NCBI GenBank assembly: GCA_021789975.1
Contig: JAJYIT010000029.1
Location: forward strand, 1-53,954
Source of the DNA: Bacteroidota bacterium
GTDB taxonomy: Bacteria; Bacteroidota; Ignavibacteria; Kryptoniales; JAKASW01
Reading direction: 5' to 3'
Length of the DNA: 53,954 nt
Every line of letters starts with the position of its first letter. Positions within the stretch are counted from its first letter, which is position 1. The notes under the pieces were generated by a model. The model ran no database searches and was not told the DNA's origin. It saw nothing but the letters and a program-made list of their open reading frames with translations. The position numbers were made by a program, and so were the translations under genes. Below are positions 41,745 to 53,394 of this stretch, one piece after another.

Positions 41745-41866
41745 GATTTGCCCGTCTGACATTGTGGTAGAATTGACACAACAATTTATCGGCGAGCACA
41801 AGAAGAAACAAGGAGTTGATCAATTGCGGATCATTCACCCGTCGAGTGAGGCGTAATCGTACTTCC

Positions 41867-41986
41867 GCACCCGTAGCTCAGTTGGATAGAGCAAGAGTTT
41901 CCTAAACTCTGTGTCGTGTGTTCTCCCTTATGAACCGGAACGGTTCACGGGGGAATCCGCCCTTGGCGGAGAGTCACGCCGAAGGC
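41867..41986 (+). pseudogene. tRNA-Arg pseudogene split by a palindromic insertion
   Basis: Near-identical to the intact tRNA-Arg 301 bp downstream from the acceptor 5' strand through the anticodon arm (TTCCTAA loop) to the TTC of the T loop at 41923. Then 47 extra bases follow (41924-41970), and the T loop and T-stem 3' strand resume (GAGTCACGCCG, 41971-41981). The 3' acceptor strand is decayed (AAGGC instead of GGGGC) and no CCA is encoded. The T-stem keeps pairing with one wobble. It is a non-functional duplicate. Confidence 0.8.
41924..41970. repeat. 47-bp palindromic element inserted in a tRNA T loop
   Basis: Composed of two perfect hairpins: TGAACCG/CGGTTCA (41931-41947, 3-nt loop) and TCCGCC/GGCGGA (41956-41970, 3-nt loop). 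Its GC-rich hairpin style matches the palindromes at 13771-13856 (which also contain GGCGGA), so it may be a mobile REP-type unit. Confidence 0.6.
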
Positions 41987-42167
41987 TTGCAAAGAGAAAT
42001 TTCAGATTTTGCTTTCCGCGATCGCCCGTAGTCGATTATCCGCTGAAACCTCATCGTTATTCAGAGAGCGTATGTAGAACGAGCGCTTGAGTATGATCGG
42101 AGAACTCTTTACCCACTTCCTCAATTGTAAATCTTCCGTCCACCGAATAAATTGTAATCGTACTTCC

Positions 42168-42244
42168 GCCCCCGTAGCTCAGTTGGATAGAGCAAGAGTT
42201 TCCTAAACTCTGTGTCGCGTGTTCGAGTCACGCCGGGGGCACCA
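42168..42244 (+). tRNA. tRNA-Arg (anticodon CCT)
   Basis: Complete cloverleaf: acceptor GCCCCCG/CGGGGGC, D arm GCTC...GAGC, anticodon stem AGAGT/ACTCT with loop TTCCTAA (anticodon CCT, reading AGG), T arm GCGTG/CACGC with TTCGAGT loop, discriminator A and encoded CCA. A duplicated upstream flank (from 42154) is shared with the pseudogene copy. Confidence 0.97.
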
Positions 42245-53043: not shown

Positions 53044-53119
53044 GTCCCCATCGTCTAGTGGCCTAGGACATCGCCCTTTCACGGCGGTAACAGGGGTTCA
53101 AATCCCCTTGGGGACGCCA
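53044..53119 (+). tRNA. tRNA-Glu (anticodon TTC)
   Basis: Complete cloverleaf: acceptor GTCCCCA/TGGGGAC, D arm with CTAGTGG, anticodon loop CTTTCAC (anticodon TTC) on a CGCC/GGCG stem, T arm AGGGG/CCCCT with TTCAAAT loop, discriminator G and encoded CCA. Confidence 0.97.
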
Positions 53120-53171: not shown

Positions 53172-53394
53172 TCATGTATTCTGAGATTCGTAAACAAATT
53201 GAATTCTTCCGTTGACTCCGGGTAGTAACTAACGGTGGGTCATGTATTCTGAGATTCGTAAACAAATTGAATTCTTCCGTTGACTCCGGGTAGTAACTAA
53301 CGGTGGGTCATGTATTCTGAGATTCGTAAACAAATTGAATTCTTCCGTTGACTCCGGGTAGTAACTAACGGTGGGTCATGTATTCTAAGATTCC
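53172..53394 (+). repeat. 68-bp tandem direct repeat, three full copies plus a partial
   Basis: Copies start at 53172, 53240, 53308 and 53376 (the last about 19 bases, with one change). The three full units appear identical. Each begins TCATGTATTCTGAGATTCG and contains a short frame MYSEIRKQIEFFR ending in TGA. There are no spacers, so it is not a CRISPR. The 68-nt period is not a multiple of three, so it is not one repeated protein. Confidence 0.9.

Follow-up and report, generated by a model that had tools for sequence, protein, structure and literature searches.

Hairpin-filled tRNA copies and GIY-YIG nuclease genes as probable homing-type cassettes in a bacterial lineage

Why should a bacterial tRNA gene stand beside a near-copy of itself whose T loop is filled by two hairpins, and where do such hairpins come from? 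The question is raised by a tRNA-Arg(CCU) locus in the window (the whole stretch of DNA analysed, 53,954 nucleotides), where two copies lie in tandem on the forward strand with a start-to-start distance of 301 bp and with the upstream DNA duplicated as well. The downstream gene (42168..42241) is intact and is preceded by a 5' flank and promoter-like region (42122..42167) that is conserved in relatives. The upstream copy is split into a 5' part (41867..41923), which ends in the T-loop TTC (positions 54-56), and a remnant of the 3' T loop, T stem and acceptor (41971..41986, GAGTCACGCCGAAGGC); with the insert left out, this copy (CCT in DNA letters) matches 69 of the 74 positions of the intact gene. 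The insert itself (41924..41970) is 47 bp long, sits exactly between TTC and GAGTCACGCCG, and shows no target-site duplication at its boundaries. It folds into two hairpins (folding z = -4.8): H1 (41924..41954), with outer TCCCTT/GGGGGA and inner TGAACCG-GAA-CGGTTCA stems supported by folding, homologues and covariation, and H2 (41956..41970), TCCGCC-CTT-GGCGGA, which rests on the fold and usually reads TCCCTTCGGGA in homologues. The original prediction of a tandem tRNA-Arg duplication, with one T loop split by a 47-bp palindromic insertion of exact boundaries (TTC followed by GAG), is borne out by these data; its description of the insert as two perfect hairpins holds for H2, with a 6-bp stem and CTT loop, but not for H1, which is near-perfect, having one A.C mismatch and wobble pairs.

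ARAGORN makes a single tRNA call across the two copies, at 42168-42244, and the Rfam model RF00005 scores the intact copy at 65.5 bits versus 29.1 for the split one; sub-threshold Rfam matches to YrlA and plastid ycf2 at the site reflect tRNA-likeness. Three acceptor pairs of the upstream copy are broken and its promoter-like region is degenerate, the duplicated 5' flank (41821..41866) being identical to 42122-42167 at 32 of 46 positions and having lost the promoter-like box AATAAATT. Given the broken acceptor pairs and the lost box, the upstream copy is a pseudogene. A tRNA intron was considered and rejected, as removal of the insert leaves the three broken acceptor pairs in place and an intact gene adjoins; a group I or other intron was likewise rejected, as Rfam detects no ribozyme family at the site and the copy is a pseudogene. 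We found no GIY-YIG nuclease gene beside the split copy. The window also contains no other copy of the insert, so an earlier remark that the insertion illustrates the mobility of palindromes found elsewhere in it is not applicable. Elsewhere in the window, about 50 bp behind tRNA-Glu (53044-53119), a 68-bp unit is present in three tandem copies (53172-53393); these units hold no T-arm copy and are therefore apparently unrelated to the hairpin inserts and cassettes described here.

Comparison of empty and filled sites, as originally proposed, revealed an empty site in G005, the nearest relative: a lone tRNA-Arg(CCU) (L019) stands there directly behind the same promoter-like box, and the upstream gene is also shared. 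The gene is single, without a second copy, in 11 genomes of the same genus. Homologues of the insert were sought first by a DNA search of relatives and then with a sequence pattern and a covariance model composed of T stem, TTC, two hairpins, GA and T stem, the E-values of which are rough. Within the window's own genome, homologous inserts were found at tRNA-Val, -Ser, -Gln and -Leu and in a fragment of tRNA-Asp next to a GIY-YIG gene; five of six genome matches lie <300 bp from an intact tRNA and the sixth is in the tRNA-Asp fragment (binomial 6e-11, a value partly biased because the model includes the T stem). The sister species G007 carries four tandem tRNA-Gly copies upstream of an intact tRNA-Gly, each with an insert at the same T-loop point; in a second place, behind tmRNA, an insert lies within a duplicate of the tmRNA 3' end. 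About ten or more copies occur in each of G002, G005 and G007, some of them as tandem arrays (at tRNA-Val, -Arg and -Gly), and exact T-loop inserts in a local copy were observed for tRNA-Arg, Gly, Val, Leu, Gln, Ser, Met and Pro and for tmRNA. In almost every case the insert directly follows TTC, inside a copy of the neighbouring tRNA.

Since homologous inserts occur at so many other tRNAs, the double hairpin in the window is not a product of chance, and the search for further copies on which the original prediction had staked itself returned them in both the genome and its relatives. The accompanying idea of a small element jumping into a tRNA T loop stands insofar as the insert is palindromic, precisely placed, repeated and apparently of a mobile type; the recipient, however, is not a lone functional tRNA, as in every case with an identified intact gene the insert lies in a duplicate next to that gene. 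Other families of the class carry shorter inserts of 22 nt; one of these, TCCCGAAGGGACTCCTTCGGAG, comes close to being a palindrome built from two palindromes. An exact-motif scan of named genomes returned true copies in Bacteroidetes MAGs only; similar patterns in viral contigs (L066, L067) and in further genome-contig and phylum matches (L068, L070, L071, L077-L080) were dismissed as chance-like, having neither a tRNA nearby nor a hairpin, and the stem TCCGCC..GGCGGA alone, which occurs at 18 places in the genome, was rejected as a family marker. As a separate observation, the tRNA-Arg(CCG) of the window's genome (L288, G000:C30) seems to be followed by a decayed 3' tRNA copy with a palindromic insert of about 20 nt, which is likely an older scar.

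We examined 14 aligned 42-nt inserts for covariation and observed that the apical stem carries paired substitutions at 8 pairs, with 25 cells changed on both sides and 92% of its cells paired; none of 500 shuffles scored as high, and slid controls were far lower. The conserved feature of the inserts is the hairpin, not its sequence, and insert lengths likewise differ among copies (22, 30, 42, 47 and 75 nt). In many 3' tRNA copies a palindrome replaces the anticodon arm, in others the T loop is filled, and in some both occur; a tRNA-Pro copy, for example, reads TAGAGCG-TGGCGCGCTTCGCGCCA-AGGTCGTGGGTTC, with the palindrome in place of the anticodon arm. Palindrome replacement is not restricted to the T loop, as several pseudo-tRNAs (L133, L135, L136, L141 and L131) carry hairpins at the junction of the D and anticodon arms or in place of the anticodon arm. 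One further locus (L145, G008:C31:490594-490693) contains nested palindromes in a 100-nt match, where the tip of the T-loop insert itself seems to have been invaded by additional hairpins.

Some of the units also contain a gene. In G002, the intact tRNA-Arg(CCG) with its AAATCCCACCGTGCTCAC is followed by GAA, an ATG-to-TGA reading frame for a GIY-YIG protein of 81 aa (Pfam PF01541, E 4e-15), TTGTGGGTTC, a 42-nt double hairpin and a second AAATCCCACCGTGCTCAC, and the unit is tandemly repeated. The same tRNA lacks a cassette in at least nine further members of the genus. Among the genomes inspected, the cassette is present in G002 and in an identical contig of G007; in the others, some of which share a conserved flank upstream, no GIY-YIG gene was found behind this tRNA. 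These two contigs (G007:C53, L122, and G002:C9, L123) are 100% identical over about 1 kb, including intergenic DNA, in MAGs of different species, which likely reflects shared contamination or very recent transfer; given this identity, the two cassettes are probably not independent.

We examined 81 distinct short GIY-YIG genes from 13 genomes of the genus. Most genomes in the analysis are MAGs, and some neighbouring tRNAs are masked by tandem units and contig ends. Of the 81 genes, 34 start no more than 170 nt 3' of a tRNA on the same strand; the distance is at most 80 nt for 30 of them and at most 10 nt for 20. For the 30, the expectation is well below one (binomial about 1e-77). Most tRNA-adjacent genes are then followed by a copy of the same tRNA's 3' part, and units span about 90-450 bp and contain one GIY-YIG ORF or none. 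The T arm is clean in many cassettes (insert 0), and the T-loop hairpin is therefore not a required cassette part. Active-site-type residues (Y, YxG, R, H and E) are invariant in the nucleases.

Phylogenetic analysis separates the short GIY-YIG proteins into two clades (support 100/96): clade A, whose 24 members are never at tRNAs, and clade B, whose 48 members include every tRNA-adjacent gene. Clade B is present in 95 of 149 genomes and 55 of 80 genera of the class, and the sampled class loci show the same cassette anatomy at Pro, Ala, Asp, Asn and Ser tRNAs, including in one-contig genomes (G048, L259). Outside the genus, roughly every second clade-B gene sampled lacks a tRNA in the 200 nt upstream, in part because of later tandem units and contig ends. 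Mapping tRNA isotype onto the tree of 54 tRNA-adjacent nucleases required 9 changes versus 30.9 for shuffled labels, with none of 200 shuffles as low; near-copies contribute to this signal, and the Asp, Pro, Ala and Ser groups nonetheless span several genera. Such isotype tracking is what target-specific homing predicts. Clade A has flanks of its own: in 5 of 24 cases (L151, L153, L171, L173 and L207; G000:C83:143110, G000:C12:9319 and others) palindromic repeats resembling CGTCATTCCCG..CGGGAATCC occur on both sides, versus 0 of 60 other genes. These palindromes resemble CGTC-tagged REPs, which have been reported without a dedicated transposase (PMC3733652).

We consider it probable that these loci are homing-type tRNA cassettes built around a GIY-YIG nuclease, with the window copy a nuclease-less derivative. 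The observations behind this reading are the cassette anatomy, the precision of the insertion site, the association with GIY-YIG genes, isotype tracking, presence or absence between relatives and covariation of the hairpins. Full cassettes encode an endonuclease of a homing family (PF01541), whereas the window copy has no ORF; orthologous tRNA sites are found both with and without the element (tRNA-Arg(CCG) and the window's tRNA-Arg(CCU)); tRNA isotype follows the nuclease tree; and tRNA 3' copies follow the ORF, in the manner of fungal mORF-type elements, which duplicate the 3' end of the invaded gene. A full cassette lies directly behind an intact tRNA and consists of a short GIY-YIG gene and then a repeat of that tRNA, either its 3' part or the whole, in which palindromic hairpins replace the T loop, at the junction of TTC and GA, the anticodon arm, or both. 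Each nuclease lineage would recognise one tRNA isotype together with its flank and cut the cassette-free allele, and repair of the cut would copy the cassette into the tRNA locus; the host would retain a whole tRNA, the cassette duplicating its 3' end. The hairpins in the downstream copy, together with separation of the upstream tRNA from its flank, may destroy the cut site and so prevent recutting, and the hairpins may also stop the downstream copy from acting as a tRNA. Loss of the nuclease by deletion and unequal (tandem) exchange would then leave hairpin-only tandem copies, the window's presumably among them. Since the split copy precedes the intact tRNA and has no nuclease gene next to it, its descent from a nuclease-bearing cassette is proposed by analogy with the full units.

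Several other explanations could account for parts of these data. The hairpin-bearing copy could instead be a structured 3' module of a tRNA/nuclease transcript, under selection at the RNA level and not as a target in DNA, and serving as a processing signal, a stabiliser, a terminator or a tRNA mimic with locked loops. Covarying stems that tolerate G-U pairs, a three-way fold kept on the T stem and the retention of tRNA stems with replaced loops would all suit such a module, yet T or acceptor stems have decayed in many copies (G002 Met, Arg and tmRNA, and the window), the window copy lacks its promoter-like box, and the hairpins vary freely in sequence and across the lengths given above; we regard this explanation as unlikely. 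Somewhat less credible still is a passive origin, in which an ordinary tandem tRNA duplication was followed by palindrome insertion or outgrowth at hairpin tips, the GIY-YIG genes being unrelated. The window, with its tandem 301-bp duplication and decayed promoter-like region, could be read in this way, as could the nested and variable palindromes at hairpin centres (L145), but not the sharing of insert type and site by many tRNAs, the nuclease gene inside the duplicated unit or the fidelity of nuclease lineages to a tRNA isotype.

The insert was originally thought to be a REP-type element, which a RAYT/Y1 transposase would have moved. REPs are scattered palindromes that bear a GTAG or CGTC tag (PMC3733652); the present inserts are also short palindromes placed without target duplication, and a check for RAYT genes did find two Y1_Tnp genes in the genome. 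No related hairpin lies beside either gene, however, copies are confined to tRNA and tmRNA copies rather than dispersed between genes, and the tag is absent, the insert reading TCCC...GGCGGA and its homologues TCCC...GGGA. Failing on tag, transposase and dispersal, the REP-type identity finds no support and is very improbable. Slightly more remote is the remnant of a tyrosine-recombinase island, with the tRNA T loop as att site and the copied 3' end as attR: the units are flanked by direct repeats of the tRNA 3' part, but at about 90-450 bp they contain no recombinase or integrase, the hairpin lies inside one repeat only, and the recurrent gene encodes a GIY-YIG protein.

The homing-type cassette finds its closest known behaviour in fungal mitochondrial mORFs (Glomus sp. 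atp6/atp9/cox2/nad3, Allomyces atp6; PMC3630166), together with mitochondrial double-hairpin elements and GC clusters. Like the cassettes, mORFs place an endonuclease ORF (LAGLIDADG or GIY-YIG in their case) at the 3' part of a host gene, duplicate its 3' end while leaving the gene whole, and are patchy between close relatives (PMC3630166). However, mORFs occupy mitochondrial protein genes and bring a foreign, diverged gene end (PMC3630166), whereas here the hosts are bacterial tRNA genes and the units, of a few hundred bp, carry a near-identical local tRNA copy with palindrome-replaced loops. Mitochondrial double-hairpin elements and GC clusters are similarly short, GC-rich palindromic units that merge and nest and are thought to be mobile, possibly with the aid of an endonuclease, according to Paquin et al. 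2000 as cited in PMC4478555; as described there, they are dispersed in mtDNA, in contrast to the T loops and anticodon arms of bacterial tRNA copies occupied here. The cassette proteins share the GIY-YIG catalytic domain (PF01541) and its invariant key residues with free-standing I-TevI (PDB 1mk0), UPF0213 (PDB 1zg2, 1ywl) and SLX1, but are single-domain proteins of about 80 aa without a separate DNA-binding domain. REP/BIME elements with RAYT are also small bacterial palindromes, apparently non-autonomous (PMC3733652, PMC3116915), from which the inserts differ in lacking a GTAG tag or RAYT association and in being confined to tRNA copies. Genomic islands integrated at tRNAs likewise exploit the conserved 3' part of the tRNA, which is duplicated when they insert, whereas the cassettes have no integrase, are tiny and carry a hairpin inside the downstream repeat.

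A bolder possibility, which we put forward tentatively, is that these loci represent a new bacterial selfish element, in which isotype-specific GIY-YIG cassettes would home into tRNA genes with hairpin-locked decoy copies of the target as self-immunity, and in which self-nesting palindromes would insert at tRNA hairpin tips (T loop and anticodon loop); the nuclease might generate these palindromes by acting, like SLX1, on cruciform or hairpin DNA. Such a role of the nuclease in making palindromes is possible because, among solved proteins, UPF0213 and the branched-DNA nuclease SLX1 come closest to it.

Our searches of the open-licence literature returned no account of GIY-YIG cassettes at bacterial tRNAs, and hairpin elements that settle at tRNA genes, often with a GIY-YIG enzyme, apparently form a widespread, undescribed family. 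Small GIY-YIG genes are present in very many bacterial genomes, and to our knowledge no role has been assigned to them. As the tRNA target is predicted by nuclease lineage, target recognition is directly testable. If a large GIY-YIG clade does consist of tRNA-homing cassettes, this would supply a function for those genes; it would also provide a bacterial counterpart to the mitochondrial endonuclease ORFs that replace gene ends and to double-hairpin elements, and would explain many tRNA pseudogenes and tRNA-flanking palindromes.
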